Part shown: positions 28,703 through 44,931 of the stretch, one piece after another
Numbering within the stretch: position 1 is the stretch's first letter
Layout of the letters: the number at the start of each line of letters is the position of its first letter
NCBI RefSeq assembly: GCF_900115095.1
Contig: NZ_FOVH01000026.1
Coordinates: 1-64,000 of the forward strand
Length of the DNA: 64,000 bases
Source: Actinomadura madurae
Lineage (GTDB): Bacteria > Actinomycetota > Actinomycetes > Streptosporangiales > Streptosporangiaceae
Direction: 5' to 3'
Position numbers and translations under genes: made by a program
Notes under the pieces: generated by a model
Told to the model about the DNA's origin: nothing
Seen by the model: only the letters and a program-made list of their open reading frames with translations
Database searches by the model: none

Positions 28703-29596
28703 TCACCGAGACCCCGCGAGCAAAGCCAACGCTCCCTCATCGAGCGCCACATCACCGGCGGCGATGTTCTCCTCCAGGTGCTCGATGCTGCGGGTCCCTG
28801 GAATCAGCAACGCGTGCGGGCCGGTCGCGAGCAGCCAGGCCAGCCCGACCTGAGCCGCGCTCACGCCCAGCAGTGACGCCACCTCCCGCACGGCCGGCAG
28901 GTCGGCGACCTTGGGCAGGTCCGGCACTCCCGATCCGAGCGGGAAGTACGGCACCCAGGCGATGTCGAACTCGCGGCAGACCTCGAGGACGGGCTCGGAC
29001 GAACGGTCGACGAGGCTGTAACCGTTCTGCACGCAGGCGACGTCGGCCGGAAGCGCATGACGCAACTGGCCGGCGTCGACGTGGCTCAGGCCGAACCCCC
29101 CGATCAGCCCGGCGTCCCGTAGGGCGACCAGTTCGGCGAGCTGATCGTCGAAGTCGACCCGCTGTTCCTCGGGGATGCCCGGGTTCCGGCCCATCGGGTA
29201 GAAGTTGACCACGTCGAGGCGCTCCAGACCCAGCGTGCGAAGGTTCGTCTCCACCTCGGCGCGCATCTCGGCGGGCGTCTGCGCGGGCCGCAGCCCCCAT
29301 TCGGCGTTCACGTCGCTCGTGGCGCCGATCTTGCTGACCAGCACCAGGTCATCGGGGTACGGGTGCAGGGCGGCGCGGATGCGCATGTTGACGAGGCCCG
29401 CGGCGTAGAACTCGGCGGTGTCGATGTGGTTCACGCCGAGCTCGACGGCCCGGCGCAGCACGGCGAAAGCAGATCTGTCGTCCCCGTGTTCGAGCTGCAT
29501 CGCGCCGTACCCGATACGGGCGACAGGGCGCCCGTACAGGGACCCGATCCCACCCGGCCGCGGACGGCGGGACTGCGTGGCATCACCGACGGTCAT
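28703..29596 (-). CDS. Aldo/keto reductase
   Basis: A 297-residue AKR: I-D-T-A-E-F-Y (catalytic Asp and Tyr), the catalytic Lys in L-V-S-K-I-G, and the C-terminal NADPH-binding I-P-G-T-R-S-I-E-H-L-E-E-N. The His of the tetrad is replaced (N-F-Y-P-M instead of a Y-x-x-H pattern), which is seen in some AKR subgroups. Start ATG 29596 is chosen since the longer frame reads through the promoter. It is divergent from a TetR gene; two related palindromes between them suggest tight repression and a detoxification role. Confidence 0.87.
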   Translation of the reverse strand: MTVGDATQSRRPRPGGIGSLYGRPVARIGYGAMQLEHGDDRSAFAVLRRAVELGVNHIDTAEFYAAGLVNMRIRAALHPYPDDLVLVSKIGATSDVNAEWGLRPAQTPAEMRAEVETNLRTLGLERLDVVNFYPMGRNPGIPEEQRVDFDDQLAELVALRDAGLIGGFGLSHVDAGQLRHALPADVACVQNGYSLVDRSSEPVLEVCREFDIAWVPYFPLGSGVPDLPKVADLPAVREVASLLGVSAAQVGLAWLLATGPHALLIPGTRSIEHLEENIAAGDVALDEGALALLAGSR

Positions 29597-29628
29597 GTCA
29601 TGACTCCGATCGCTGGTAACCTCCAAAC

Positions 29629-29642
29629 CGGAGGACCCTCCG
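29629..29642. promoter_or_regulatory. Second TetR operator (proximal to the aldo/keto reductase)
   Basis: CGGAGG-AC-CCTCCG, a perfect 6+2+6 palindrome with the core of the stronger site at 29651-29676, centred about 28 bases away and 33 bases from the AKR start. Confidence 0.6.
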
Positions 29643-29650
29643 AAACGTAG

Positions 29651-29676
29651 CACAATCGGAGGTGCCTCCGATTGTG
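29651..29676. promoter_or_regulatory. TetR operator, perfect 26-bp palindrome
   Basis: CACAATCGGAGG-TG-CCTCCGATTGTG: both 12-base arms match perfectly. It lies 26 bases before the TetR start and between the divergent genes, the usual place for an autorepressor site. Confidence 0.8.
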
Positions 29677-29701
29677 GCGTCGGCGAACGAGAGGTGATGG
29701 C

Positions 29702-30247
29702 ATGCGGGCGGACGCCCGGCGCAACCGCGACCGTCTCCTGGCGGTGGCTCGCGCCGCCTTCACGAGCGGCAAGCCGCTCGTCCTTGAGGACGTCGCTCGT
29801 GAGGCGGGTGTGGGCATCGGCACGCTCTACCGGCACTTCCCGAGCCGAGAGGCACTGATCGGCGAGCTCTTCAGCGCCGAACGCGCCGCCCTCTGCGCCC
29901 GCGCCGAGTCACTGCTCGCCGACCACGAGCCCGTCACGGCCCTGCGGCTGTGGATGGACGCCTACGCCGACTTCGTCGCGACCAAACGCGGCATGGCCGA
30001 AACACTCAAAGCGATCATCACCATGGACGCGGGCGCCGACGCCGAGGCACGCGAGAACCTCGACACCGCCGTCCGAACCCTGCTCTCCGCCGGCGCCCGG
30101 CAAGGCCGCCTCCGACCGGACACGCAACCCGAGGACCTGCTAACGGCCCTGGTAGGCATCCTCCTCGCCACCGATGACAGCGCCCAGACAGCACGCCTCT
30201 TCGACCTGCTCATAGCCGGCCTGCGCCCCGAAACGGCAACCCCTTAA
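29702..30247 (+). CDS. TetR family transcriptional regulator
   Basis: A 181-residue TetR protein: R-N-R-D-R-L-L-A-V-A-R-A-A-F and the helix-turn-helix L-E-D-V-A-R-E-A-G-V-G-I-G-T-L-Y-R-H-F-P-S-R. The C-terminal part matches the SbtR-like ligand domain. ATG 29702 has GAGAGGTG upstream; an out-of-frame ATG lies five bases earlier. It should repress itself and the divergent aldo/keto reductase. Confidence 0.9.
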   Translation: MRADARRNRDRLLAVARAAFTSGKPLVLEDVAREAGVGIGTLYRHFPSREALIGELFSAERAALCARAESLLADHEPVTALRLWMDAYADFVATKRGMAETLKAIITMDAGADAEARENLDTAVRTLLSAGARQGRLRPDTQPEDLLTALVGILLATDDSAQTARLFDLLIAGLRPETATP

Positions 30248-30560
30248 GAAGTGCGCAGGCCCGGACGCCAACGCCACTCGTGCCGAGGTACCGGCCGGCG
30301 ATCTCCAGTTGAGGTCGGCCCGTTTACCTGCAGTGCGCCCAAGCGATGCTCGGTCGCGGGTCGGTGACGTAGGCCCTGCGTGGCGCGAGCCGCAGCGCTG
30401 TGGTGACCTGCGGCCAAAGTGACGTGCTCGTCCGACAGATGAATGTCGGACCGAGCGTTCCGTGGTGTGGAACAGCGGTCTGGGAACGGGCTCGCGCCGG
30501 TGCGACCGTGACCGGACCCACGACAGAGCGTGGTCGAACCACACGACGCGAGGTGGACGC
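30248..30560. other. Promoter region of the Rieske dioxygenase cluster
   Basis: 313 bases without a gene between the TetR gene and the dioxygenase alpha subunit. It must hold the cluster promoter. No convincing hexamers or palindrome were found by eye. Confidence 0.4.
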
Positions 30561-31910
30561 ATGAATGCCCTGAGCGCGACGCGACTTGACGAGCTGGTCT
30601 CGCTCGAACGGGGGGAGGTGGACCGGCGCATCTTCTCGGACGAGGACATCTTCGAGCAGGAGATGAAGCTCATCTTCGGCAGGGCCTGGCAGTTCCTCTG
30701 CCACGAGAGCCAGATCCCGAAGGCGGGCGACTTCTTCGAGACGCCGATGGGCCGGGACAACGTGCTGACGGTCCGTCAGAAGGACGGCTCGATCAAGGCG
30801 ATGCTGAACACGTGCAGTCACCGTGGCAACGCGGTATGCCGCGCGGAAGAAGGCAACATCAAGGCCTTCATGTGCACGTATCACGGATGGTCCTTCGACC
30901 TGGGCGGGAAACTGATCGGCGTTCCCAACATCGACAGGTTCTACAAGGGCGGCCTCGACAAGTCGAAGCATGGACTGACCCAGGTCGCGCAACTCGCGAA
31001 CTACCACGGGTTCATCTTCGGCACGATGGATCCCGCGGCGCCTTCGCTGGAGGACTACCTCGGGCCGACCGGCCGGATCGCGATCGACCTCATCGCGGCG
31101 CGCGATGTCGAGATCATTCCCGGCATCCAGAAGTTCACCATCGACTGCAACTGGAAGTTCGCCGTCGACAACGTGTTCGACTGGTACCACGCCCAGGTCA
31201 CGCATATGTCCGCTCTCGCATCGGGGCTGTTCGCGCCTACCGATGGCGACGTCGAGGTCGGCGGTGCGAGGAACACGCTCGGCGAGTCCCTGGACATCCC
31301 GAGCGGGCTCATGGGCGACGGGATCCACGACCTCGTGCTCCTCGCCGAGTTCGGCCACGCCGCGGGCGGCCCGTCGGTCGACGGGCTGGGCGGCATGCCG
31401 ATAGACACCTCGTGGCGGCAGAGGCCGAAGGCCCGCGAGTGGCTCGGCCCGATCGGAAGCCAGGTCTGCGGCTATCCGAACGTCTTCCCGAACAGCTGGC
31501 TCGCGACGGCGGGCGGGCAGCTGTCGCTTCGGGTGCCGGTGAGCCCGAACAAGACGGAGATCTGGTGGTTCAGCTTCGTCGAGAAGAACGCCACGCCCGA
31601 GCAGCGGAAGATGACCGTCAGGATGGCGAGCCACATCTTCGGGCCCGCCGGAATCCTTGAGCAGGACGACGGTGAGAACTGGGCCCAGTCGACCGTCCAG
31701 ACGCACGGTCATCGCAGCCGGCGGATTCCGCAACTGCTCAAGATGGGGCTGGGCCGAGGAAAGGTCATCAACGAGCACGGCCTCCACCGCATCGAAGGAT
31801 CCACGAGCGAGAGCGCCCAGCTGTGGACCTATCACGCCTGGGCGCAGTGGATGAAGGACCTGGACTGGGATTCGCTCCGCCAGGCGACCGTGCCACCGGA
31901 CGTGCTGTGA
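30561..31910 (+). CDS. Rieske aromatic ring-hydroxylating dioxygenase, alpha subunit
   Basis: A 449-residue catalytic subunit. The Rieske [2Fe-2S] ligands are Cys85-x-His87 and Cys105-x2-His108 (C-T-Y-H-G-W). The mononuclear iron site is seen in D-N-V-F-D-W-Y-H-A-Q-V-T-H (bridging Asp207, His210, His215) with Asp369 as likely third ligand. Length and motifs fit the biphenyl/phenylpropionate/cumate branch that adds O2 across an aromatic ring to give a cis-dihydrodiol. ATG 30561 is preceded by GAGGTG; the frame is open further upstream but without homology. Partners: beta subunit 52 bases on, Rieske ferredoxin and reductase at 37.6-39.3 kb. Confidence 0.93.
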   Translation: MNALSATRLDELVSLERGEVDRRIFSDEDIFEQEMKLIFGRAWQFLCHESQIPKAGDFFETPMGRDNVLTVRQKDGSIKAMLNTCSHRGNAVCRAEEGNIKAFMCTYHGWSFDLGGKLIGVPNIDRFYKGGLDKSKHGLTQVAQLANYHGFIFGTMDPAAPSLEDYLGPTGRIAIDLIAARDVEIIPGIQKFTIDCNWKFAVDNVFDWYHAQVTHMSALASGLFAPTDGDVEVGGARNTLGESLDIPSGLMGDGIHDLVLLAEFGHAAGGPSVDGLGGMPIDTSWRQRPKAREWLGPIGSQVCGYPNVFPNSWLATAGGQLSLRVPVSPNKTEIWWFSFVEKNATPEQRKMTVRMASHIFGPAGILEQDDGENWAQSTVQTHGHRSRRIPQLLKMGLGRGKVINEHGLHRIEGSTSESAQLWTYHAWAQWMKDLDWDSLRQATVPPDVL

Positions 31911-31962
31911 ATCGACGTCCTGAATCCCGAACACGTCGTCTTTCTGAAAGGAGTTCGTGGCG

Positions 31963-32508
31963 ATGACGGTCGATCTGGAGGCGGTCGCCTCTCCTGAGCT
32001 GGTGGCGTCCATGGTGCTCCAGTACCAGGTGGAGAAGTTCTACAACGACGAAGCCGCGTTGTTGGACGCGCATAAGCACGAACAGTGGGTGGAGCTGTTC
32101 TCCGAGGACACCCACTACTTCATGCCGATCAGGCGCACGCGCCTGCGCCGCGAACTGGCGAAGGAGTTCACCAAGCCCGGCGAGATGGCGTACTTCGACG
32201 ATGACAAGGAACTACTCCAGGCCAGGTGGAAGAAGCTCGCCAGCGGAGCCTCCTGGGCGGAGGACCCGCCGTCGAGGACGCGGCACCTGATCACGAACGT
32301 TCGGGTCACCGAGGACCGCGGTGCCGAGCTGAGCGTGGAGTCCAACTTTCACGTCTACAGAACGCGCCTGAAGACGGATGTCGACTCGTGGGTGGGTTCA
32401 CGGCAGGACGTACTGAGGCGCAACGGTGATTCCTTTCTGATCGCCAGAAGACTGATCCTGCTGGATCAGTCGGTGGTGCTCTCGCGCAACCTCACCACCA
32501 TGTTCTGA
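31963..32508 (+). CDS. Ring-hydroxylating dioxygenase, beta subunit
   Basis: A 181-residue NTF2-like small subunit: an N-terminal helix with V-E-K-F-Y-N-D-E-A-A-L-L-D, W-V-E-L-F-S-E-D-T-H-Y-F-M-P, and the C-terminal F-L-I-A-R-R-L-I-L-L-D-Q-S-V. It forms the structural half of the alpha3-beta3 terminal oxygenase. AAAGGAG lies nine bases before ATG 31963 and only three before an alternative GTG at 31957, so the ATG is preferred. Confidence 0.92.
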   Translation: MTVDLEAVASPELVASMVLQYQVEKFYNDEAALLDAHKHEQWVELFSEDTHYFMPIRRTRLRRELAKEFTKPGEMAYFDDDKELLQARWKKLASGASWAEDPPSRTRHLITNVRVTEDRGAELSVESNFHVYRTRLKTDVDSWVGSRQDVLRRNGDSFLIARRLILLDQSVVLSRNLTTMF

Positions 32509-32684
32509 GACCGCACCGTCCTCGGAATGAGGACTGCGGCCGATCACGCGTGCACTCGTCGGCCGAGTAGCGACAACGCATCGCCGGCGGCTCCCAATGA
32601 ACGCCTCCCGATGAACAGGACCAGGGACGATCCCGGATCGCCCCTGCCCGATACATGAAGAACAACGTAGAGGAGCGGGCGACA

Positions 32685-33965
32685 ATGGAAGTCGCGAATT
32701 CCCGGAGACGGGTGTACCGGATATGCGTTCCCGTCCTGCTGCTGGCTCTGGCGGCGGTGGCGTGCGGCGGCGCGCCGGACAGTTCCGAGACGGGCGGCGT
32801 GGGCGTCAACCCGTCCTGCACCGGCGAGCCGGTGAGGTTCGGAGTCATCTCCGTCCTGACCGGTGACGCGGTCATCCCGGCCGATCCCTCCTACGCCAAC
32901 GGCGCCAAGGCCGCCGCCACGGCGTTGAACCGGTCGTGCGAACTCGGCCGGCCCGTCGAGGTGGTCAGCTGCGACAGCAAGAACGACCCGAACCTGGAGG
33001 CCGCCTGCGGCCGGAAGCTCGTGAACAAGAAGGTCGTGGCGTTCATGGGCCAGGACGTCGGGGGAGGGACGTGGTTCCCGATCACGTCGGCCGCCGGCAT
33101 TCCCGAGATCGGCGGCACGGGCCTGTCCAGCGTCGAGACCACGAGCCCGCTGTGGTTCCCGCTCGCGGGCAACGTCAACGCGGCTCTCGCCTACGCGACG
33201 GTCGCGGCGTCCGAACTCGACAACGTCAGAGCCGCGGTGCTCCCTCTGGACTCCCCGGGCGTGAGCTTCTACATCGATTTCTTCAAGCGTCAGACGGAGG
33301 CCCTCAACGGCACTTTCGCGGGTTCGTTCCCGGTGCCGGCGACCACGGTCGACATGACGCAGTACGCGGCGCAGGTGAAGAGCGCGGGCGCGAACGCGGT
33401 CTATCCGGTTCTGGGGGGTGACCAGTTCCTCGGCCTGGTCAAGCAATTGGCGGCCCAGGGCAGCCCGCTGACCGAGACCGTGGTCATCCAGCTAGGCTCC
33501 GGGGTCACCTGCGAATTCCTCGATCAGGTGGGCCCGGCCGGTGAGGGGCTCTGGGTGCTCAACTCCGCGTGGCCGGTGGCGTGGGACACCGGTTCTCCGG
33601 GCGCGAAGCAGTACATCGGTGAACTCAAATCGGCCGGACTGCCGTCCGGTGCATGCGATGTGAGTGAGTTCGGTGTCCAGGCATGGTCCGCGGTGCACAT
33701 CATGGCCGGCCTTCTCAAGGGCTCCCCGACAATGGACGCCAAGACCCTCGTGCGGAAGTTGAACACGGCCGGGCCGATCAAGCGTTCCGAACTGGCGGGC
33801 ACGGTCGACTGGAGCAGGAACGCCTTCCCGAACGACGCGTCGCTCTCCCGCCTTCGGATCTTCTCCAACCAGTTCCTCGTGTCCCGCATCATCGGCGGCA
33901 AGCCGCGCCTGGTGACTCCGTCGCCGGCAACGGTCGGGAAGCCGTTCACCCCGAGAACCGGCTGA
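32685..33965 (+). CDS. ABC transporter substrate-binding lipoprotein, branched-chain amino acid type
   Basis: A 426-residue periplasmic-binding-protein type 1 (LivJ-like) protein with a lipoprotein signal, lipobox A-V-A-C-G. The mature part has F-G-V-I-S-V-L-T-G-D-A and many loops of the family. Such proteins in aromatic clusters bind aromatic acids rather than amino acids. ATG 32685 has GAGGAG nine bases upstream, better than the earlier ATG at 32655. The transporter gene follows after a strong hairpin that may raise the ratio of binding protein to transporter. Confidence 0.9.
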   Translation: MEVANSRRRVYRICVPVLLLALAAVACGGAPDSSETGGVGVNPSCTGEPVRFGVISVLTGDAVIPADPSYANGAKAAATALNRSCELGRPVEVVSCDSKNDPNLEAACGRKLVNKKVVAFMGQDVGGGTWFPITSAAGIPEIGGTGLSSVETTSPLWFPLAGNVNAALAYATVAASELDNVRAAVLPLDSPGVSFYIDFFKRQTEALNGTFAGSFPVPATTVDMTQYAAQVKSAGANAVYPVLGGDQFLGLVKQLAAQGSPLTETVVIQLGSGVTCEFLDQVGPAGEGLWVLNSAWPVAWDTGSPGAKQYIGELKSAGLPSGACDVSEFGVQAWSAVHIMAGLLKGSPTMDAKTLVRKLNTAGPIKRSELAGTVDWSRNAFPNDASLSRLRIFSNQFLVSRIIGGKPRLVTPSPATVGKPFTPRTG

Positions 33966-33979
33966 TCCCTCCACTCGCG

Positions 33980-34018
33980 CCGGACGGTGCCGCCCACCGA
34001 GGCGGCGGCACCGTCCGG
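33980..34018. terminator. Intra-operon hairpin between binding protein and transporter
   Basis: Perfect 15-bp stem (CCGGACGGTGCCGCC and its complement) with a 9-base loop, 14 bases after the binding-protein stop and 75 before the transporter start. Likely a partial terminator or 3'-protecting structure. Confidence 0.7.
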
Positions 34019-34092
34019 CCGGCCCACCCCGAAGACGATGACGATGCGACCGGCCACGCCTCTGTCGCATTCCGACGTAGTGGAGAAGAACC

Positions 34093-37000
34093 ATGTTGGC
34101 AACCGATCTCCTCAGCCAGCAGACAATGGCGTTCGCGCTGCTCGGCATGGCCACCGGCTCGCTCTACGCGCTCGTGGCGCTGGGCATAGTGCTGGACTAC
34201 CGGTCATCCGGCGTACTGAACTTCTCGGCGGGCGCGGCCGGCGGTATCGCCGCATTCTGCTTCTACGGCATGCGGGACGACCTCGGCTGGGCGACCGTGC
34301 CCGCCCTGGCCGTGGCGCTGCTCCTTGCCGCCTCGCTCGGCGCGCTCACCCAGCTCGTGGTCCTGGGGTTCCTGCGGGAGGCGTCGCTGATCGGGAAACT
34401 GATCGCGACACTGGGGGTGATGGCGGCCGCGCAAGGCGCCGTGGCCATCGCCTTCGGCAACGAATCCAAGGGGCTGCCGCGGCCGATCCTGCCCAACGAC
34501 CCCGTGCGGATCACCGACCGCATCCTGATCCCGCAGGACCGCCTGCTCATCATCGGCATCGCGATCGCGCTCGCCGTCGCCCTGCGCATCGCCTACTCGA
34601 CGACCCTGTTCGGGCTCGCCACCTCGGCGGTGGCCGAGAACCGGCACGTCACGAGCGCCTACGGGTGGTCGCCGAACAGGATCGAGCTCATCAACTTCAC
34701 GATCGCGGGCCTGCTGTCCGGCTTCGCGGCCATCCTCCTCGCGCCGATCATCGGCCTCGCCGGGAGCACCCTGGCCCTCACCGTCCTGCCGGCACTCGCC
34801 GCCGCTCTGGTGGGCCGGCTGTCCTCCTTCGCGCTGACCGTCGCGGGTGCCCTGGCGATCGGGGTCGTCACGAGCGTGATGGGGTTCCTCCTGCCGGACA
34901 TCGCGCAGGCGCTCGGCGTCGGCGTCCCCTCGATCACCGGGCTGCCGGACACCGTCCCGCTCCTGGTCGTCATCCTGATCACCGTGTTCGGCGGCCGGGC
35001 CCGCCTCCAGCGCGGTGAGACGTCCGCGCGGATGCCGCTGCCGGGCACCGGCCGGCTCCGGCCGGGCCTCATCATCGGCGCCGGCGCCGTCTTCGCGGTC
35101 ATCACGTTCCAGGTCTCCGGGACGTGGGTCGACGCGTTCACCATCAGCATCGCCGGCGGGCTCCTCGTCCTTTCCGTCGTGGTCGTCACCGGTTACGCGG
35201 GCCAGCTGTCGCTGGCGCAGTTCGCCCTCGCCGGCTTCGGCTGCTGGGTGGCCGCCCGTCTCGTCGCGACCCAGGGCTTCGCGTTCGGCGCCGCACTCGT
35301 GGCCGGCGTGGCGGCCACGGCGGCGGCCGGACTCCTGGTGGCCCTGCTGGCCCTCCGGGCGCGGGGGGTGAGCCTCACCGTGGCGACCCTCGGCCTCGCG
35401 CTCATGATCAACGCGCTGGTCTTCAGCAACGGCGCGCTGACGGGCGGATACGTCGGCACGCTCGTCACGACGCCGAGCCTGTTCGGACTCTCGCTCGACC
35501 CGATCGGCCATCCTGCGCGCTACGCCGTCTTCGGCCTGGCCATGTTCGTCGCGGTCGGGCTCATGGTGGCCAACCTGCGCCGCGGCCGGACCGGCCGGCG
35601 CCTGCTCGCGGTCCGCGGGAACGAGCGCGCGGCGGCGTCGCTCGGGATCGGCGTCCACACCGCCAAGCTGTTCGCCTTCGCGCTGGCGGCGGCGATCGCG
35701 GCGGTGGCCGGCGTGGTCCTCGGGTTCCGGCAGCCGCAGATCCAGTTCAACCAGTTCGACATCGCCGGGTCGATCAACGCCGTGCTCAACGCCGTGCTCG
35801 GGGGAGTGGGATTCGCCTCCGGCAGCGTCATCGGCGGTGCCCAGACCGAGGGCGGCATCACGACACACGTCCTCGACCAGCTGTTCCCCGGCAACACCGA
35901 GACGGTCTTCTGGATCCAGATCGTCTCGGGTCTCGGCGTGATCCTGCTGATGCGCCAGTGCCCCGACGGCCTCGCCGCGCTGTACGCCAACCTCGTCGGA
36001 CGCCGGCTGCCGGACTTCAGGTGGCGCCGGACCGGTTCCCCGGCCGCGCCCGTCCCGGGGCGGCCGCACCAGCCGAGGGCACTGGAGGTCCGCAACGTCT
36101 CCAAGCGGTTCGGCGGCGTCGTGGCCCTCGACGACGTGAGCCTCAGCGTCCGTCCGGGAGAGGTGCTCGGGCTGATCGGCCCGAACGGCGCGGGCAAGAC
36201 GACCATGGTGGACGTCATCACCGGCTTCTCCACGCGCACGGCCGGGTCCGTGCTGCTGGGCGACCAGGTGATCGACGCCTGGTCGCCGGAGAAACGGGCC
36301 CGGCGCGGCATCGCGCGGTCTTGGCAGAGCGTCGAGCTGTTCGAGGAGATGACCGTCCGCGAGAACCTGCTCGTGGCCGCCGAGCGGCACCACCCGGCGC
36401 GCTACCTCGTGGACCTGGTCTGGCCGGGACGCCCCCGGCCCACCACGGCGATGCAGGACGTGGTGGACGAGTTCGGGCTCGCCGAGTTCCTCGACATGCG
36501 GCCGTCGACGCTGTCCCAGGGCACGGCGCGGCTGTGCGGGATCGCGCGGGCGATGGTCAGCCGCCCTTCGGTGCTGCTGCTCGACGAGCCCGCGGCCGGA
36601 CTCGACGCCCACGAGACCGCCGAACTGGTCGCACTGATCGAGCGCATCGCGCGGAAGTGGCGCGTCGCGGTGCTGATCGTCGAGCACGACGTCGAGATGA
36701 TCCTGGGCCTGTGCGACAGGGTCACGGTGCTCGACTTCGGCAGGCAGCTCGCCGACGACGTCCCGGACGCGATCCGCAGTCATCCGGAAGTGATCAACGC
36801 GTACCTGGGCGATGCGCTCGAAGAGCGGGAACCGTCCGCGGCGACCGCGTCCGACCTGGATGACCGCGCCGTCGTTCTCGAAGCGGAGAAGCTCCGGGCG
36901 GGCTACGGCGACCTCACCGTCGTCCGGGATCTCGACCTACGCGTGCGCGGCGGCGAGGTGGTCGCCCTCCTCGGCCCGAACGGCGCGGGCAAGACGACCA

Positions 37001-37614
37001 CCGTCCGCACGCTCGCCGGCGATCTGCGCAAGCACGGCGGCACCGTGCGGATCGACGGCTGCGAGGTGGTCTCGGCCCTCCACGCGCGGGCCAAGGACGG
37101 TCTCGGCCTGGTGTCCGAAGAGCGCACGGTGCTGATGCGGATGACCGTCGCGGAGAACTTGCGGCTCAGCCGCGGTGACCGGCGCCTCGCGCTGGAACTG
37201 TTCCCCGAGCTGGAGCCGCACCTGCACCGCCGCGTGGGGATGCTGTCCGGCGGCCAGCAGCAGATGCTCTCGCTCGCTCGCGCGCTGTCGCGGAGGCCGC
37301 GGCTGCTGATCGCCGACGAGCTGTCCTTCGGGCTCAGCCCCATGGCATCGGCGCGGCTGCTCCAGGCCATCCGCGCGGCGGCCGAGACCGGCATCGGCGT
37401 GCTGCTGGTGGAGCAGCACGTCCAGCGCGCGCTGGAGGTCGCCGACCACGCCTACGTGCTGCGGCAGGGGCGGGTCGAGATGAGCGGAGCCGCACACGAC
37501 CTGCGCGAGACGGCGCTGAAAGACATCCAAGGCCTCTACCTGGCGGGCGCCGCGGCGACAGACGCACCGGAAGCGGACCGGCCGCGAGGGCCGTCGCTTC
37601 CCGCCGGTAACTGA
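34093..37614 (+). CDS. Single-chain branched-chain-type ABC transporter (LivH-LivM-LivG-LivF fusion)
   Basis: A 1173-residue polypeptide carrying a whole import machine. In order: LivH-like permease (about residues 1-300, opening with G-S-L-Y-A-L-V-A-L-G-I-V), LivM-like permease (about 330-630, with G-Y-A-G-Q-L-S-L-A-Q-F-A), LivG-like ATPase (about 662-915; Walker A G-P-N-G-A-G-K-T-T near 695, Walker B L-L-L-D-E-P near 827) and LivF-like ATPase (about 927-1155; Walker A near 960, signature L-S-G-G-Q near 1050, Walker B L-L-I-A-D-E near 1072). The LivG signature is L-S-Q-G-T rather than L-S-G-G-Q. These parts are usually three or four genes. The start follows GGAGAAG. It would take up the cluster substrate delivered by the lipoprotein at 32685. 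Confidence 0.93.
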   Translation: MLATDLLSQQTMAFALLGMATGSLYALVALGIVLDYRSSGVLNFSAGAAGGIAAFCFYGMRDDLGWATVPALAVALLLAASLGALTQLVVLGFLREASLIGKLIATLGVMAAAQGAVAIAFGNESKGLPRPILPNDPVRITDRILIPQDRLLIIGIAIALAVALRIAYSTTLFGLATSAVAENRHVTSAYGWSPNRIELINFTIAGLLSGFAAILLAPIIGLAGSTLALTVLPALAAALVGRLSSFALTVAGALAIGVVTSVMGFLLPDIAQALGVGVPSITGLPDTVPLLVVILITVFGGRARLQRGETSARMPLPGTGRLRPGLIIGAGAVFAVITFQVSGTWVDAFTISIAGGLLVLSVVVVTGYAGQLSLAQFALAGFGCWVAARLVATQGFAFGAALVAGVAATAAAGLLVALLALRARGVSLTVATLGLALMINALVFSNGALTGGYVGTLVTTPSLFGLSLDPIGHPARYAVFGLAMFVAVGLMVANLRRGRTGRRLLAVRGNERAAASLGIGVHTAKLFAFALAAAIAAVAGVVLGFRQPQIQFNQFDIAGSINAVLNAVLGGVGFASGSVIGGAQTEGGITTHVLDQLFPGNTETVFWIQIVSGLGVILLMRQCPDGLAALYANLVGRRLPDFRWRRTGSPAAPVPGRPHQPRALEVRNVSKRFGGVVALDDVSLSVRPGEVLGLIGPNGAGKTTMVDVITGFSTRTAGSVLLGDQVIDAWSPEKRARRGIARSWQSVELFEEMTVRENLLVAAERHHPARYLVDLVWPGRPRPTTAMQDVVDEFGLAEFLDMRPSTLSQGTARLCGIARAMVSRPSVLLLDEPAAGLDAHETAELVALIERIARKWRVAVLIVEHDVEMILGLCDRVTVLDFGRQLADDVPDAIRSHPEVINAYLGDALEEREPSAATASDLDDRAVVLEAEKLRAGYGDLTVVRDLDLRVRGGEVVALLGPNGAGKTTTVRTLAGDLRKHGGTVRIDGCEVVSALHARAKDGLGLVSEERTVLMRMTVAENLRLSRGDRRLALELFPELEPHLHRRVGMLSGGQQQMLSLARALSRRPRLLIADELSFGLSPMASARLLQAIRAAAETGIGVLLVEQHVQRALEVADHAYVLRQGRVEMSGAAHDLRETALKDIQGLYLAGAAATDAPEADRPRGPSLPAGN

Positions 37615-37650
37615 TCTCCCTCCTCCGACTCCAAGGATGTGTGCATAGCC

Positions 37651-37959
37651 ATGACCTGGATCCGCGCCTGTGAGATCGACGCCGTCGACGACGGCGAGGC
37701 GACCGTCCTGCAGCGCTCCCCGGAGCCGCCGGTGGCGGTGTTCAACGTCGGCGGCGAGTTCTTCGCCACCGACGACACCTGCACCCACGACAACTATTCG
37801 CTCGCCGACGGCTACATCGACGACGAGGTCGTGGAGTGCCCTCTGCACATGGCGAAGTTCTGCATCCGGACGGGGAAGGTGCTGTCGCCGCCCGCCACCA
37901 GGGGCCTGACTTCCTATCCCGTGAAGGTCGAGGACGGAGCGGTCTACGTCGACGTGTGA
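37651..37959 (+). CDS. Rieske [2Fe-2S] ferredoxin component
   Basis: A 102-residue Rieske ferredoxin with Cys44-x-His46 and Cys63-x2-His66 as cluster ligands. It carries electrons from the reductase encoded next to the terminal dioxygenase encoded at 30561. Length is standard for BphA3/HcaC-type ferredoxins. ATG 37651 is chosen; an in-frame GTG at 37639 lies too close to AAGGA. Confidence 0.93.
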   Translation: MTWIRACEIDAVDDGEATVLQRSPEPPVAVFNVGGEFFATDDTCTHDNYSLADGYIDDEVVECPLHMAKFCIRTGKVLSPPATRGLTSYPVKVEDGAVYVDV

Positions 37960-37985
37960 TCGCGCCGGGGACGCGCTGCGCCCTC

Positions 37986-38034
37986 GCTGTGCCCCGCTGC
38001 CCCGCTGTGCCCCGCTGCCCGCTGTGCCCCGCTT
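37986..38034. repeat. Short tandem repeat before the ferredoxin reductase
   Basis: Units of GCTGTGCCCCGCTGCCC, 17-18 bp, two full copies and a partial third, in the 100-base gap between ferredoxin and reductase genes. Confidence 0.75.
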
Positions 38035-38059
38035 GAACGGATTTGAGGGAACGACAGGT

Positions 38060-39292
38060 ATGCCCAAACACCCCACCTACGTCATCGTCGGCGCCGGTCT
38101 GGCCGGCATGAGGGCCGCGGAGACACTTCGCCAGGAGGGTTTCGACGGCCGTCTCGTGCTGATCGGTGACGAGCCCCACCTGCCCTACGATCGCCCGCCG
38201 CTGTCGAAAGGCGTGCTCGACGGCTCGCGGGAAGCCGAGTCGACGAGACTGCGGGATGAGAGCTTCTACGTCGACAACGCCATCGAGGTTGTGTCCGGCC
38301 GGCCGGTCACCGCACTGCGTCCCCGGCTGGCCGCGGTGGAGCTGGGCGACGGCGCCGTCCTGCCCGCTGACAAGGTGCTCCTGGCCACCGGTGCTGGACC
38401 GCGTCCGCTGAACGTTCCCGGGGCGGACCTCCCCGGCGTCGCGTACCTGCGCACACTCGACGACGCACTGGCTCTGGCGGGGGAGCTGCGCGCCGGAGCC
38501 GCGGTCGTCGTCATCGGTGCCGGATTCGTGGGGGCCGAGGTCGCCGCTTCGGCTCGGAGCCTCGGCTGTGACGTGACGATGCTGGAGACGGCGCCCGTGC
38601 CCCTGGGGCGGGTGCTCGGGCCGGACATCGCACGGCGCTTCACCGCGCTCCACCTCGCCCACGGCGTGAACCTGCGTTGCGCGGTCGGCGTCGAGGCGAT
38701 CGAGGGCGCGCAGCACGTCCAAGCCGTCACCACCACGGACGGTGTCAGCCATCCCGCCGACGTGGTCGTGGTCGGCATCGGCGCCCTTCCCAACAGCGAT
38801 CTGGCGGCGCAGGCGGGCATCACGGTCGACGACGGGGTCATCGTCGACGAGCTGTGCCGCACCGGCAACCCCCACGTGTTCGCCGCCGGTGATGTCGCCC
38901 GCTTCTGGTCGCCCGTCGCCGATCGGCGGGTCCGGAGGGAGAACTGGCAGAACGCCATCGACCAGGGGGCGGCCGCCGCGATGTCGATGCTGGGCAAAGG
39001 GTCGGCGTACCGCGAATCGCCCTGGTTCTGGTCCGACCAGTACGACCTGAAACTGCACATGGCCGGCGCACCGGAACCGACGGACGACGTGGTGTGGCGA
39101 GGCGACCCGTCGGGCGCGGATTTCTGCGCCTTCTATGTCCGGGACGGCGTCCTCACCGGCGCGGTGGGAGTCAACCGGCCCAAGGACGTCCGCGCGGCAC
39201 TGACCGCCATCACGGCCCGCTTGACCGTCCCGCCGGAGATTCTCGCCGACCCCGCCATCGACCTGCGCAAGGCGACCCGTCAATTGGTGTGA
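38060..39292 (+). CDS. Ferredoxin reductase component of the dioxygenase (FAD/NAD)
   Basis: A 410-residue pyridine-nucleotide reductase of the BphA4/HcaD type. FAD motif G-A-G-L-A-G near residue 11, NAD motif G-A-G-F-V-G near residue 155, FAD-contacting P-Y-D-R-P-P-L-S-K, and V-F-A-A-G-D-V in the third domain. It passes electrons from NADH to the Rieske ferredoxin. ATG 38060 has GAGGGA upstream; the frame is open 12 codons earlier in the repeat region. Confidence 0.93.
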   Translation: MPKHPTYVIVGAGLAGMRAAETLRQEGFDGRLVLIGDEPHLPYDRPPLSKGVLDGSREAESTRLRDESFYVDNAIEVVSGRPVTALRPRLAAVELGDGAVLPADKVLLATGAGPRPLNVPGADLPGVAYLRTLDDALALAGELRAGAAVVVIGAGFVGAEVAASARSLGCDVTMLETAPVPLGRVLGPDIARRFTALHLAHGVNLRCAVGVEAIEGAQHVQAVTTTDGVSHPADVVVVGIGALPNSDLAAQAGITVDDGVIVDELCRTGNPHVFAAGDVARFWSPVADRRVRRENWQNAIDQGAAAAMSMLGKGSAYRESPWFWSDQYDLKLHMAGAPEPTDDVVWRGDPSGADFCAFYVRDGVLTGAVGVNRPKDVRAALTAITARLTVPPEILADPAIDLRKATRQLV

Positions 39293-39410
39293 GAAATCGT
39301 CCGCAGCCGTTCAGAGATGCGGAACAAGCATCCTGACGCAGCGAATGCCCGTGACCATACTCAGGCTGCCGGCAGATGGTCTGCCGCAGAAAGTGCAAAG
39401 GAGTTCTGCA

Positions 39411-40385
39411 ATGGCTTTCACCGACGAGGGGATCATGAAGGTCGACGGCCTGTTGAGCCGATGGGTCAGGCTGCCCGGCGGCGTCAAGGCCCACTACATG
39501 ACTTCGGGCGAGGACGGGCCGCCGGTGGTGCTGCTGCACGGGGGCATCATCGGTTCTTCCGGTACGGCCGGGTGGCGATTCATGGCGCCATTCCTCGGAG
39601 CGCACGGCTTCCGCGTGTACTGCCCGGACCAGCCCGCGTTCGGCCTGACCGAGGACCCGCAGGGGTACTACGAGCCGGGGCGTGCCGGGCACGTGGACTT
39701 CCTGCACGACTTCACCACGGCGCTCGGCCTCGACCGCTTCCACCTGGCGGGCAATTCGATGGGCTGCCTGAACACCGTGAACTATGTGGTGGCCCACCCC
39801 GAGCGGGTCATCAGCTACGCGCTGATCGGCGGCCGCATCGGCGATCTGGTCGGCGACGACGAAGAGCAGGAGCTCCGCGAGAGGCTCGACCACGTGATCC
39901 CCGACATCAGGGTCTTCGACGGCACGAAGGACTCGATGCGGATCATGCTGGAAAAGATCATCTACCGGGCCGAGTCGATCAGCGACGAGCTGCTGGAGAT
40001 GCGCACGCGGGCCGCCAACAACAAGCGCGAGGAGTACGCCCGGCACACCGTGAAGACGTTCCAGCCGCTGACCGGTGTCGACGTCGCGCGCTTCCCCACC
40101 AAGGGCCGCCTCGACAAGCTGCCGATCCCGGCGATCTACCTTTACGGGCGACAGGACGTGATCTTCCCTGTCGAACTCGGCTACCTGCAGGAGGAACGGC
40201 TCCCGAACGTCCAGTTCTTCTTCCCCGACGAGTGCGGACACCAGGGGCAGACGGACCAGCCGGACATGTTCAACCAGATCTTCCTGGAGTTCTTCCGCGA
40301 CGGAAAGGTCAGCCGGAAGACGGCGGACTGGGCGGGGGTGTCCAAGAACCGTCCCGAAATGCCCGAGTACGTCGCCGCGCGGTGA
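39411..40385 (+). CDS. Alpha/beta hydrolase, meta-cleavage product (C-C bond) hydrolase type
   Basis: A 324-residue alpha/beta hydrolase. Oxyanion H-G-G motif near residue 44, nucleophile Ser116 in G-N-S-M-G, Asp249 in Y-G-R-Q-D, and His277 in C-G-H-Q-G. The G-N-S-M-G elbow and context with an extradiol dioxygenase match BphD/MhpC/HsaD-type hydrolases that cleave the vinylogous 1,5-diketone made by ring fission. Sequence is about 35 residues longer than typical BphD at the C-terminus. AAAGGAG lies seven bases before ATG 39411. Confidence 0.85.
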   Translation: MAFTDEGIMKVDGLLSRWVRLPGGVKAHYMTSGEDGPPVVLLHGGIIGSSGTAGWRFMAPFLGAHGFRVYCPDQPAFGLTEDPQGYYEPGRAGHVDFLHDFTTALGLDRFHLAGNSMGCLNTVNYVVAHPERVISYALIGGRIGDLVGDDEEQELRERLDHVIPDIRVFDGTKDSMRIMLEKIIYRAESISDELLEMRTRAANNKREEYARHTVKTFQPLTGVDVARFPTKGRLDKLPIPAIYLYGRQDVIFPVELGYLQEERLPNVQFFFPDECGHQGQTDQPDMFNQIFLEFFRDGKVSRKTADWAGVSKNRPEMPEYVAAR

Positions 40386-40440
40386 CGAGCCCCGCTTCGG
40401 TCGCGAGTTCCCGCCCAGCCACCACAAAGGAGCCCGGACG

Positions 40441-41331
40441 ATGGGTTACATCAAAAGCCTCGGATACATCGGCGTCGGCGCCGACGATCTCACCGCGTGG
40501 CGCGAGTTCGGCACCGGCGTGCTCGGCCTCCAGGTCGGTGAGGCCGGCGCGGACGACGACACGCTGTACTTCCGGATGGACGGCAGGTCCTACCGGATCG
40601 CCGTGCACAAGAGCACCCATGGCGCCCTGCACTACTTCGGATTCGAGATCAGCACCCGCGAGGAACTGGCCGACTTCGCCGAGCAACTTCACTCGAAAGG
40701 CGTCGAGGTGACCGAGGAAGGCGCCGAGCTCTGTGCCGCCCGGCGCGTGTCCGCCCTGCGGAGCGCGACGGATCCCATGGGCAACCGCCTGGAGTTCTTC
40801 GTCGGGCACGAGGAGGCCACCGCCCCCTTCGTCTCGCCCACGGGCGCCCAGTTCGTCATCGACGACATGGGCCTCGGCCACGCGTTCATCACGTGTGACG
40901 ACATCGAGGTCTTCAAGGACTTCTACATCGGCAAGCTGGGCTTCCGCCTCAGCGACACCGTCAGCCTGACACCGGGCGCGGAGACCCATTTCCTGCGCTG
41001 CAACACGCGGCACCACACGCTCGCCGGCGTCGCCATTCCCGGCAGGCTGCCCTCGCTGCATCACATCATGCTGCAGGTCGCCTCGATCGACACCGTGGGT
41101 CACGCCTACGACAACGGCGGCGGCATGGTCGACCTGACACTCGGCAAGCACACCAACGACCACATGATCAGCTGCTTCTTCAAGACGCCCTCGGACTTCG
41201 TGGTGGAGTACGGTTTCGACGGTCGCCAGGTCGACGACGACACCTGGGTCGTCGGCCACTACACCGCCGCGAGCTACTGGGGTCATCGACGCCCGGAAGC
41301 GATGACCGGAGCGAACGAGCCGACGTCTTAG
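40441..41331 (+). CDS. Extradiol ring-cleavage dioxygenase (type I, BphC-like)
   Basis: A 296-residue two-module VOC-fold dioxygenase. Probable Fe(II) ligands are His147 (G-H-A-F-I), His208 (H-H-I-M-L-Q-V) and Glu256 (V-E-Y-G-F). The N-terminal module opens with L-G-Y-I-G-V-G-A-D-D-L, as in 2,3-dihydroxybiphenyl 1,2-dioxygenases. It opens a catechol between C2-OH and its neighbour, feeding the hydrolase encoded just upstream. It ends the cluster; a strong hairpin follows at 41425. The substrate may be any 3-substituted catechol. Confidence 0.93.
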   Translation: MGYIKSLGYIGVGADDLTAWREFGTGVLGLQVGEAGADDDTLYFRMDGRSYRIAVHKSTHGALHYFGFEISTREELADFAEQLHSKGVEVTEEGAELCAARRVSALRSATDPMGNRLEFFVGHEEATAPFVSPTGAQFVIDDMGLGHAFITCDDIEVFKDFYIGKLGFRLSDTVSLTPGAETHFLRCNTRHHTLAGVAIPGRLPSLHHIMLQVASIDTVGHAYDNGGGMVDLTLGKHTNDHMISCFFKTPSDFVVEYGFDGRQVDDDTWVVGHYTAASYWGHRRPEAMTGANEPTS

Positions 41332-41424
41332 GGCCGCTTGGAAGCGCACGCTAACAATGGCCCGATTCCGCACACAGCCGCCTGAGTAGGCACCGATCCG
41401 CGCGTCCGGCGAGAGCAGCCGCCC

Positions 41425-41462
41425 GGCGCCCCGGAGCACGATCCACGAGTGCCCGGGGCGCC
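41425..41462. terminator. Bidirectional terminator between convergent genes
   Basis: GGCGCCCCGGAGCAC pairs with GTGCCCGGGGCGCC with one bulged base and a 9-base loop, between the convergent extradiol dioxygenase and TetR genes. Confidence 0.75.
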
Positions 41463-41594
41463 GCTCAGGGCGTGAGCCCGGCACCCTCTGCGTCGAGGTC
41501 AGATCACCGACGGCCCTGCTCGAACGAGTGGAGCGCCGTCTTTCGTTCGTAAGACCGGTCAGGCGCCGGAAGAGGCGGAGGAGGGCGGTGCGTC

Positions 41595-42260
41595 CTACTC
41601 GTCGGTCAGGCAGGCTTCGATGATCTTCGTGAGCTTGCGCTCCAGCGCGTCGCGTTCGTGCTCGCTCAGGTCGTCCAGCGAGCGGCCGAAGATCGCCCCG
41701 ATACCGAAGAGCCCGAGCCCCATTGTCAACGACGCCATCAACCGCAGGATCGTCTCGGAGTCGTCCCGGTCTCCGAGCTTCGCTCTCAGGGGGCCGGTGA
41801 ACCGCTCCTCCAGTTCCGCCTGCAGCAGCGTTCCGCCGTCGAGGTCGACCGACCTCACCAGTGCGACGGCGGGGGTCCGGGCCTGGACGTCGTCCCAGAA
41901 TTCGAGCAGCCGGCGTGCCCACTCGGGCGCGGTGTCCGGCATCTCCGGCTCATAGCCGAATTTCGCCGAGGCGACCACCTCGAAAAGGGCGCGCTTCGAT
42001 CCGAAATACCTGTTGATCAGTGCCGCGGTGACATCCGCGTCCGCCGCGATCTCCTGCAGGGTCACATGGGCGTATCCGCGTGCGGCGAAATGCCGGGCGG
42101 CCGCCTTGACGATCTCGGCGCGAGTCAGCTCGGCATTGCGCCCGCGCGCGGGCCCCCCACGGGCGGTGCGATTCCGGTTCACCTCGTCGACCGGAACGGC
42201 TCGTGGGAGTGATCTCCTTTTCGGGGCTGTTGCATCAGGCGGCCGTTGAGCCGCCCCCAC
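41595..42260 (-). CDS. TetR family transcriptional regulator
   Basis: Up to 221 residues: E-I-V-K-A-A-A-R-H-F-A-A-R-G-Y and the helix-turn-helix L-Q-E-I-A-A-D-A-D-V-T-A-A-L-I-N-R-Y-F-G-S-K. Two GTG starts are possible, 42260 and 42182; neither has a good ribosome-binding site, and the first 26 residues of the long form are Arg/Pro-rich and may not be translated. As the only regulator adjoining the meta-cleavage cluster it is the best candidate to control it, though it is convergent and would act in trans on the promoter at 30.3-30.5 kb. Confidence 0.85.
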   Translation of the reverse strand: MGAAQRPPDATAPKRRSLPRAVPVDEVNRNRTARGGPARGRNAELTRAEIVKAAARHFAARGYAHVTLQEIAADADVTAALINRYFGSKRALFEVVASAKFGYEPEMPDTAPEWARRLLEFWDDVQARTPAVALVRSVDLDGGTLLQAELEERFTGPLRAKLGDRDDSETILRLMASLTMGLGLFGIGAIFGRSLDDLSEHERDALERKLTKIIEACLTDE

Positions 42261-42457
42261 CGTTTCAGCAGCCGCAGACGGACCGCAGCCACCCGCACCT
42301 CCGCTCGCCGTACGATCATCCGAGAATTAGATCATCATACCTTCATCCCGAGACCCGATTCAAAGGACGACCGGCCGGTCCGCAATGGTGGTCATGCGGC
42401 TGAGCGCCTCCAAGCGGGCGGAACGTAGATCGCACGGCCGCCCCGCGGACCCGCAGG

Positions 42458-43441
42458 TCAGGACCATAGCGTCGGCTCTGGGGGGAGGAGCCGGTCGAGC
42501 TCGTCCATTTGCGCGTCGTCCAACCTGACACCGTCGACCGCCGGCACAAGTTGATTCAGTTCTTCCACCGTCTCCGGGCCGACGATGGCCGTGGCGATGC
42601 CCGGCCTGCCCAAGAGCCATGCCAGGGCGACGCCCGATGTCGTAAGACCCCACTTGTTCGCGAGTCCGGTGACAGCCATGGCCAGGTCGCGTTCGTGTCC
42701 GGTGAATCCCTGCCCTCCCCAGCGAGCGTCGCCCTGGTACGGACGGTCCGCTGTTCCCGCCGCGAACAGCCCGCCCGCAAGAGGACTGAACACGGCCGTT
42801 GGCAAGCCGAAATGCCGCGCGGCGGGAAGCACTTCTCGCTCGATCCAGCGCTTGGCGAGGCTGTAGCGGGTTTGATGGCAGATGGGCTTTCGGACTCCGA
42901 TGTTCTCCGCGACGAGAAGTGCTTCGGTCAGCTGCCACCCGTCATAGGTGGACAATGCGTAGTGGCGGATCTTGCCTTGGCGAATGAGGTCATCGAATGT
43001 GCCGAGGAGTTCCGCGATGCCGGTGTCGGGATCGGGATGGTGGGCATAGTAGATGTCCAGATGATCCGTCCGAAGGCGGCTCAGGGTCCGTTCGACCATC
43101 CGCATGATGTGCGTGCGGCCGAGACCGCGATCGTTGGGGCCGCCTCCGATCGGTTCTCCGACCTTGCTCGCCAGCACGACCTCGTCCCGGCGCTTTCCGA
43201 GTGCGGCACCCACGATCTCCTCGGACGACATCCGCTCGCCGGCGCCGGGAAGTCCCGCCCGGTCGAACCGCGCCTGGTTGCCGTAGCTGTTCGCGGTGTC
43301 GATGTAATTGATCCCGGCGTCGAGCGCGGCGCGGATCATGCGATCCGCCTCAGTCGCGTCGGGTGCCAGCCCGAAGGTCGCGGTGCCCAGGCCCAGCCGG
43401 GAGACGCGCAGCCCTGACGCGCCGAGGTTCGTGTATTCCAT
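42458..43441 (-). CDS. Aldo/keto reductase
   Basis: A 327-residue AKR with the tetrad elements I-D-T-A-N-S-Y (Asp, Tyr), L-A-S-K-V-G (Lys) and Y-Y-A-H-H (His), and the NADPH-binding I-V-G-P-E-T-V-E-E-L-N at the C-terminus. It resembles the YajO/Tas-like branch acting on sugar or aromatic aldehydes. Its first 31 codons overlap the 3' end of the IclR gene in another frame, so expression is probably coupled to that gene. Confidence 0.88.
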   Translation of the reverse strand: MEYTNLGASGLRVSRLGLGTATFGLAPDATEADRMIRAALDAGINYIDTANSYGNQARFDRAGLPGAGERMSSEEIVGAALGKRRDEVVLASKVGEPIGGGPNDRGLGRTHIMRMVERTLSRLRTDHLDIYYAHHPDPDTGIAELLGTFDDLIRQGKIRHYALSTYDGWQLTEALLVAENIGVRKPICHQTRYSLAKRWIEREVLPAARHFGLPTAVFSPLAGGLFAAGTADRPYQGDARWGGQGFTGHERDLAMAVTGLANKWGLTTSGVALAWLLGRPGIATAIVGPETVEELNQLVPAVDGVRLDDAQMDELDRLLPPEPTLWS

Positions 43442-44288
43442 GGGGCTCCGTTCTCTGGGAGGGGCGGGGATCCGCGGGGCCCGCGACCTGATGGGACAAC
43501 TCCCGGGTCGTCGCGAGGAGAAGGTGGCCGTACTTCGCTTCGAGCCTGCGGTTCGTGCAGGAACAGATGGAGACGGCCGCGATCGCCTGGCCCGACCACG
43601 GATCGAGGATCGGCGACGCGATGCAGTACACGCTGTTCTGCATCTCGCCGCGGTCCGATGCGATCCCGGTCGATCGGGCCTCGTCGAGTCGCCGTTCCAA
43701 TTGGCCGGCACCGCGGACGGTGCTGCTGGTGAAGCGACGGAAGGGGCCCCGGAGGACGTGATCGATGACCGCGTCCTCAGCGAAGGCGAGCATGGCCTTG
43801 CCCAGAGCGGTCGCGTAGGCCGGTCGCCGCGCGCCGACGGCGGTCGAGCACAGGGCGCCGCTGTGGCCGAACAGCTTCTCCAGGTAGAGAACGTCACCCC
43901 CGGCCAGCGTCGCGAGGTGGATGGTCTCGCGACTGGCCACGAACAGGCTCGACAGGAACGGCATGGCACGGTGCCGGAGACCCGTCGAGCCGAGCAGGGT
44001 GAACCCGACCCGGTTGCCCAGCTCGAAGACCCGCTCGGTGAGCGCGTACCTTCCGTCGACCTTGCGGACGTATCCGCTCTCGACCATGACGGTCAGCAGG
44101 CGATGGGTGGTCGACTTCGGGGCGCCGATCGAGCGCGCCACCTCGGTCACCCCCAGGATGGCGCGGGGACCGCGGAAGGCGTCCAGGATCGCCAGCGCCT
44201 TCGCCGCCGAGCTCGCACCGTGCCCGGCGTCGTCGGCCGCACGCGGGCCGGGCGCGGCCGGGTCGCCGCTCGTCACTGTGATCGCCAC
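43350..44288 (-). CDS. IclR family transcriptional regulator
   Basis: A 312-residue IclR protein: helix-turn-helix V-T-E-V-A-R-S-I-G-A-P-K-S-T-T-H-R and effector domain with Y-A-T-A-L-G-K-A-M-L-A-F. The family usually ends near residue 265; here an Arg/Pro-rich tail of about 45 residues continues over the start of the downstream aldo/keto reductase for 92 bases. The tail may be the result of a lost stop codon. A 24-bp palindrome (44315-44338) lies 26 bases before the start and a sister site lies 300 bp further, next to the E1-alpha operon, so it likely controls itself and that operon. Confidence 0.87.
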   Translation of the reverse strand: MAITVTSGDPAAPGPRAADDAGHGASSAAKALAILDAFRGPRAILGVTEVARSIGAPKSTTHRLLTVMVESGYVRKVDGRYALTERVFELGNRVGFTLLGSTGLRHRAMPFLSSLFVASRETIHLATLAGGDVLYLEKLFGHSGALCSTAVGARRPAYATALGKAMLAFAEDAVIDHVLRGPFRRFTSSTVRGAGQLERRLDEARSTGIASDRGEMQNSVYCIASPILDPWSGQAIAAVSICSCTNRRLEAKYGHLLLATTRELSHQVAGPADPRPSQRTEPHGIHEPRRVRAARLPAGPGHRDLRAGTRRD

Positions 44289-44338: not shown

Positions 44339-44931
44339 CTCACGGTAAGCGCGACGATGAGGCATGTCAAGAACGCGATGGAAGCCAGTTGCCATCTTGA
44401 TCAAGAGCGGACAGTTGCCCTTCTTCCTCAACCGAAGTCAAATGTTCGACAGCTACGCGCAACGAGGGCGGAGGCGGAGGCGGCCCACTGGTGCACGCGG
44501 CGAGGTAGGGCGCCTTCGCGATGGTTCCCCCGCTGGGGGGCTGCTCGCCGCGCGGAGGAGGGGCCAACCTCGTCCGACAGCCGAGGCGAAGGTGCTCTGT
44601 CGGTCATTGACCCTGTAAGTAAATGACCATATACTTCCGACGGTCGCCGGCCTCCGCGTGATGGTCGGCCCTGGCTTGAGGGGGCTCTCATGGCCCGTGA
44701 CGCAGACAGCGGCCCATGGTCAGTGGCACGCACCGACTTCACCGACACCGACCGGCTCAGGACTCCGTACCGTCCCGCAGGTTCCCAACGCCGAGGAAGC
44801 CTCGTATGCGGCCGGGTTCTCTGCCGCACCCTCGGCCCGCCCCACGCCACACCGGGGCGACACATGGCGGCGGAGCCGCCGGGACATTCCCCGGACGCAC
44901 GACGGCCCCCGACGGACAGAGGGAGGCAGGC
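44339..44931. other. Long divergent intergenic region
   Basis: Nearly 600 bases between IclR and the E1-alpha-like gene. It holds site 2 of the operator pair; short open frames present have neither ribosome-binding sites nor recognisable homology. The transcript leader of the E1-alpha gene could be about 280 bases long if its promoter overlaps site 2. Confidence 0.5.
44615..44638. promoter_or_regulatory. IclR operator (site 2)
   Basis: GTAAGTAAATGA-CCATATACTTCC, the inverted counterpart of site 1, starting exactly 300 bases from it. Probably the control site for the E1-alpha/SDR operon. Confidence 0.65.

Follow-up and report, generated by a model that had tools for sequence, protein, structure and literature searches.

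A single reading frame for a four-domain LIV-type ABC importer core in a dioxygenase gene cluster of Actinomadura madurae

The whole core of a branched-chain-type (LIV) ABC importer, LivH-LivM-LivG-LivF, was found in a single reading frame at 34093–37614 (+) of the window, the 64,000-nucleotide stretch of DNA from the soil bacterium Actinomadura madurae analysed here. Importer cores are normally made as several separate proteins. The results indicated that the fused frame is real, that it is uncommon and lies a single step beyond a common fused arrangement, and that it stands in a functionally sensible setting within a ring-hydroxylating dioxygenase cluster. Most probably, the gene specifies a one-chain LIV/HAAT-type importer core that was born when livF joined an already fused gene and that, as we infer, would pair its two ATPases within the chain and import the aromatic compound of the neighbouring pathway.

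The frame runs from ATG to TGA over 1173 residues with zero internal stops, and its architecture is matched in Amycolatopsis pithecellobii. Pfam recognized two PF02653 (BPD_transp_2) and two PF00005 (ABC_tran) domains, and PF12399 at the LivG end. The domain borders, set by subfamily HMMs built from relatives, placed the LivH permease (PF02653) at residues 12–269 (34126–34899), the LivM permease (PF02653) at residues 336–628 (35098–35976), the LivG ATPase at residues 664–907 (36082–36813) and the LivF ATPase at residues 927–1150 (36871–37542), all on the forward strand, with 15 strongly hydrophobic segments within residues 16–620. LivG and LivF are joined by a linker of about 20 residues (908–926; 36814–36870, +). 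The LivG motifs are GPNGAGKTT, the C-loop LSQGT, VLLLDEPAAGLD and VEHD, which holds the switch histidine, while those of LivF are GPNGAGKTT, LSGGQ, LLIADELSFGLS and VEQH, with Gln at the switch-histidine position. Pfam, the HMMs and the uninterrupted ORF thus agree with an earlier note that had read four Liv domains in one open frame, and both Walker A/B sets that it had called intact were found again in the motif reading. Structure prediction of the fused chain, run with a two-sequence alignment only, yielded an unusable model, with a mean pLDDT of 31.7 and a pTM of 0.24. The long antisense ORF at 34204–36783 (859 aa) was regarded as a shadow frame of high-GC DNA.

By its domains, the fused chain is a LIV/HAAT-type importer: it has two BPD_transp_2 permeases as well as LivG and LivF ATPases, both of which have the Walker A, Walker B and C-loop motifs, and a cognate type-I Peripla_BP_6 protein (PF13458) is encoded alongside. 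Two narrower assignments were rejected. The scores for E. coli-type amino-acid LivG/LivF (NF008449, 322.5 vs. 362; NF008626, 250.2 vs. 441) stayed below the cut-offs even with both ATPase domains summed. For the urea transporter UrtDE, UrtD failed (274.6 vs. 304.1) and UrtE passed (290.4 vs. 285.8) only because the scores of two ATPase domains were added together.

The neighbouring genes, all on the forward strand, encode the parts of a dioxygenase system of the biphenyl/phenylpropionate type. The fused gene is preceded by those for the Rieske dioxygenase alpha subunit (30462–31910; PF00355, PF00848; nearest solved structures 3-phenylpropionate/cinnamate and biphenyl dioxygenases), the beta subunit (31957–32508; PF00866; above the NCBIfam cut-off of NF007479) and the substrate-binding lipoprotein (32685–33965; PF13458, E 2e-38; 75% identical to its adjacent counterpart in A. 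pithecellobii). It is followed by those for the Rieske ferredoxin of the dioxygenase (37651–37959; PF00355; NF007422 above cut-off), a ferredoxin reductase (38024–39292; PF07992, PF14759; translation probably starting after the GTG at 38024), an alpha/beta hydrolase of the meta-cleavage product hydrolase type (39345–40385; PF00561; weak HsaD/BphD match) and an extradiol, BphC-type dioxygenase (40441–41331; PF22632, PF00903; TIGR03213 at 279 bits, under the cut-off). The lipoprotein start at 32685 used in the earlier note is plausible, with an in-frame ATG and a lipobox-like ...LAAVAC in the product, and the ORF could open at 32655. Aldo/keto reductase genes stand at both edges of the cluster, at 28703–29836 (-) and 42458–43969 (-); since the latter is 76% identical to a counterpart in A. 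pithecellobii and 56% identical to one in the plasmid cluster of Rhodococcus YL-1, it probably encodes a pathway enzyme. Further downstream, a dehydrogenase E1 component (44716–45894) and a short-chain dehydrogenase (45928–46854) could serve the same or the following catabolic route.

The cluster at 28703–43969 recurs in A. pithecellobii RM579 (L033:1–13996) with 64–87% protein identity and a rearranged gene order. Conserved around the transporter gene, with 72–87% identity, are both dioxygenase subunits, the binding protein, the ferredoxin, the reductase and the hydrolase, as well as a TetR regulator and an aldo/keto reductase. Despite the rearrangement, the genes for the two dioxygenase subunits, the binding protein, the transporter, the ferredoxin and the reductase are still grouped, and the stop codon of the transporter gene overlaps the start of the ferredoxin gene (12468–12471). 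The 16S sequences of two members of the window's genus share only 89% identity with the A. pithecellobii 16S, yet the cluster is shared, suggesting that it probably moved horizontally between distant actinobacteria. A mutator-type transposase and a recombinase are encoded downstream of the A. pithecellobii copy. A related dioxygenase cluster is also carried by the Rhodococcus YL-1 plasmid, with no such transporter in the stretch examined.

Since the transporter gene is part of a cluster for ring hydroxylation and extradiol cleavage and travels with that cluster, its substrate is most likely not a branched-chain amino acid but an aromatic compound, probably an acid; the location in an aromatic catabolic cluster holds in two organisms, the window's and A. 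pithecellobii. The only solved relatives of the binding lipoprotein by sequence were 4f06, 4evs and 4ey3, with a weak match (E 2.5e-6), which we take to be Rhodopseudomonas binding proteins for aromatic acids. The adjacent lipoprotein would capture the substrate outside the cell and hand it over to the LivH/LivM channel, and import would be powered by the LivG/LivF pair as it binds and hydrolyses ATP. An unlikely alternative, though one to be reckoned with, is that the protein functions as a fused LIV-type importer but takes up an amino acid or some other non-aromatic compound, its place among the dioxygenase genes being incidental. The domains are those of the branched-chain amino acid importer class, and the sister three-way transporters (L110–L113 and L116) have other surroundings: a binding protein is encoded next to them, but no dioxygenase genes. 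Neither were dioxygenase neighbours found for two further four-way proteins described below (Rhodococcus sp. USK10 and genome G392) in the stretches examined, so the fusion as such is not tied to aromatics. However, in two distant organisms whose clusters are otherwise reordered, the transporter gene is placed between those for the dioxygenase subunits and that for the ferredoxin, LivG and LivF score under the NCBIfam cut-offs for their E. coli-type namesakes, and the binding lipoprotein matched no NCBIfam family. We therefore keep to an aromatic substrate as the preferred reading.

The integrity of the long frame bears on two further explanations. One is that a stop or frameshift at the LivG/LivF joint was lost through a sequencing or assembly artefact, and a stop is indeed present at this position in most relatives. 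Yet third-position GC, measured in 40-codon windows, was 0.82–1.00 across the four domains and all three joints, with dips only at the last C-terminal residues; this steady course leaves no room for a hidden frameshift, and no remnant of a stop/start overlap was seen at the joint. Stops or frameshifts at the joints, whose appearance on resequencing the earlier note had named as grounds for giving up its reading, are not found in the frame as assembled. Further, the independent assembly of A. pithecellobii RM579 contains a matching four-domain frame (1160 aa, 77% identity), and the same fusion in a second species makes an assembly error very unlikely. Within the domains the two proteins are 77–85% identical, and third-position codon changes (0.34–0.46) are well above first- and second-position ones, being 3–7 times those at position 2 (0.07–0.12), a pattern that is the mark of purifying selection on the protein. 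An artefact can accordingly be regarded as extremely improbable. The other explanation, that the frame is real while its product is not one chain, owing to cleavage or an internal LivF start, so that the fusion would be functionally meaningless, is improbable to a lesser degree. The LivG/LivF linker is only 20% identical between the two species, as expected for a tether or a cleavable stretch, and a separate LivF suffices in relatives. Against this, the joint has no in-frame start codon save a GTG at residue 900, which lies within LivG, and the linker is short, stop-free and of equal length in both species, which have both kept the fused frame.

The earlier note had rated the full four-way fusion as rare. 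Its distribution was followed in several sets of genomes. One scan of a genome collection returned a single close relative, the A. pithecellobii RM579 protein. No other four-way protein was present in 65 genomes of the window's own genus, where most of the remaining strong matches spanned LivH to LivG in about 910–960 residues, and none was added by draws of 91 (family), 101 (order) and 110 (phylum) genomes. These draws did contain one LivM-LivG-LivF fusion (L035/L099), an alternative three-way form (L099:2102–4678) with LivH as a separate gene upstream. With LivH alone as query, 395 genomes of the class gave at least 100 loci, and well over that number; among the matches listed, frames of at least about 1100 residues were inspected and domains assigned for nearly all of them. 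At least one of the matches listed was four-way (genome G392; L081, 1302 residues), and the other long frames among them were LivH-LivM-LivG proteins with longer linkers or an upstream frame extension. On plasmids, four records covered at least 80% of the query, one encoding a four-way protein (Rhodococcus sp. USK10, L017, 1146 residues) and three LivH-LivM-LivG with LivF. The USK10-type protein had no match in the genus of G492, which is uninformative about Rhodococcus. No account of a four-domain LIV importer turned up in a literature search, a weak negative given its partial coverage.

From these surveys, the ordinary form of the subfamily is a LivH-LivM-LivG fusion with a neighbouring separate LivF gene that often overlaps it by a few bases, 4 nt in many cases, and since close relatives usually have this arrangement, the protein of 34093–37614 amounts to the three-way protein plus LivF. 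Among the actinobacterial sequences examined the four-way form is uncommon but recurrent. The claim of rarity therefore holds as to its being uncommon; it does not hold in so far as the protein was thought to stand alone, as at least three origins are found in these sequences, and the step to it had been rated too rare, the three-way form of the relatives being one short step away. Another elaboration was seen at L070, L071, L075 and L076, from genomes of family f73 (e.g., L071:2163–5795 (-)), where LivH-LivM-LivG proteins of 1210–1281 aa carry a 330–400 aa insert between LivM and LivG. In the three inserts measured, 9–12 hydrophobic segments were counted; the insert matches no Pfam family and looks like an extra membrane domain.

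The phylogeny pointed to separate fusion events. In a careful tree of 20 rows, the window and A. pithecellobii proteins formed a pair, while the USK10 protein joined the three-way protein L024 (bootstrap 94, SH-aLRT 95), hence a fusion of its own. In a quick tree of 32 rows, well-supported branches forced three origins, namely the window and A. pithecellobii pair, USK10 and G392. A single clade of the window, A. pithecellobii and USK10 proteins was rejected (p-AU 4.4e-5), with the caveat of long branches in USK10 and its partner. The trees call for no fewer than three origins of the four-way fusion among the actinobacterial sequences examined. The G392 fusion looks recent, judged mostly from the frame lengths of orthologues in its genus, in which LivH is 77–83% identical and frames have about 1025–1165 residues, one having 840, against 1351 for the frame of G392 itself. 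As to how the window's form was born, the sister of the window pair (L088/L089) has LivH-LivM-LivG with LivF, and in L088 the stop of the three-way gene and the livF start overlap as ATGA (cATGAc). A small frame-changing insertion at such an overlap would create the fusion; a separate livF, usually directly after the fused livH-livM-livG gene, would thereby be joined to it in frame via a linker of about 20 residues.

The LivG C-loop LSQGT had been taken as a hint of asymmetric ATP sites in this protein. It is common to the window and A. pithecellobii proteins, and among relatives LPHGR, LSQGE, LSQGQ, LPYGT, LSTGT and LSYGK were found, among others, so that LSQGT lies within the wide range of the family and is not special. 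In LivF, the C-loop is nearly always LSGGQ or LSGGE. The switch-histidine position is Gln (VEQx) in all 55 LivF domains parsed, and also in the solved LivF-like chain 1ji0, whereas LivG domains have His (VEHD and variants, also NEHD). ATP-site asymmetry is thus plausible as a family-wide property, resting on residues other than LSQGT; its better sign is the Gln of LivF. ABC ATPases pair head to tail. With LivG and LivF paired in this way, the Gln switch and the variable LivG C-loop would share one composite site, that of the LivF Walker motifs. Pairing of LivG and LivF in cis within one chain, which the earlier note had seen as forced by the fusion, is plausible, and a swapped dimer of two chains is possible as an alternative. 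Tentatively, and with the balance somewhat against it, the protein may be read as a single-chain importer whose cis LivG/LivF pair, fixed by the fusion, has one consensus and one degenerate ATP site: the consensus site would consist of LivG Walker A/B, the LivG switch His and LivF LSGGQ, and the degenerate one would combine the Walker A/B motifs of LivF, its Gln in place of the switch His and the variable LivG C-loop. If this is true, the whole family would run an asymmetric ATP cycle, and the fused chain would let each site be mutated alone.

Going from a multi-gene importer core to one encoded by a single gene takes only a small final step, made no fewer than three times among the actinobacterial sequences sampled. 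An importer in one chain would be handy for structural work and for separate mutation of the two ATP sites, which is hard to achieve cleanly with separate subunits, and the fused gene marks a likely dedicated uptake system within an aromatic-degradation cluster apparently moved between distant actinobacteria. The nearest homologue, that of A. pithecellobii RM579 (L033:8989–12471), shares the four-way frame, 77% identity and the dioxygenase cluster, but differs in cluster gene order, its length of 1160 aa and a shorter C-terminal tail. The plasmid protein of Rhodococcus sp. USK10 (L017:8013–11453, 1146 aa) has the same H-M-G-F architecture, but is 40% identical, groups with a three-way protein and has no adjoining dioxygenase genes. 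The three-way LivH-LivM-LivG actinobacterial importers, e.g., Rhodococcus sp. BH4 WP_081559128.1 with WP_081559130.1, which we take to be of HAAT type (TC 3.A.1.4), resemble the fused chain in domain order, a neighbouring binding-protein gene and 36–55% identity, but have their own separate LivF gene, in most cases overlapping or abutting the H-M-G gene. E. coli LivKHMGF is alike at the domain level, in its four core domains and its dependence on a binding protein; in contrast, its core is encoded by four separate genes and the fused chain has a different likely substrate, with LivG and LivF of the window below the NCBIfam equivalog cut-offs. Dedicated aromatic ABC importers are documented in HbaEFGHI (benzoates, Rhodopseudomonas) and PatDABC (phthalates, Rhodococcus RHA1) (PMC10973024); by description these are likewise ABC importers for an aromatic catabolic pathway, but with a multi-gene core.
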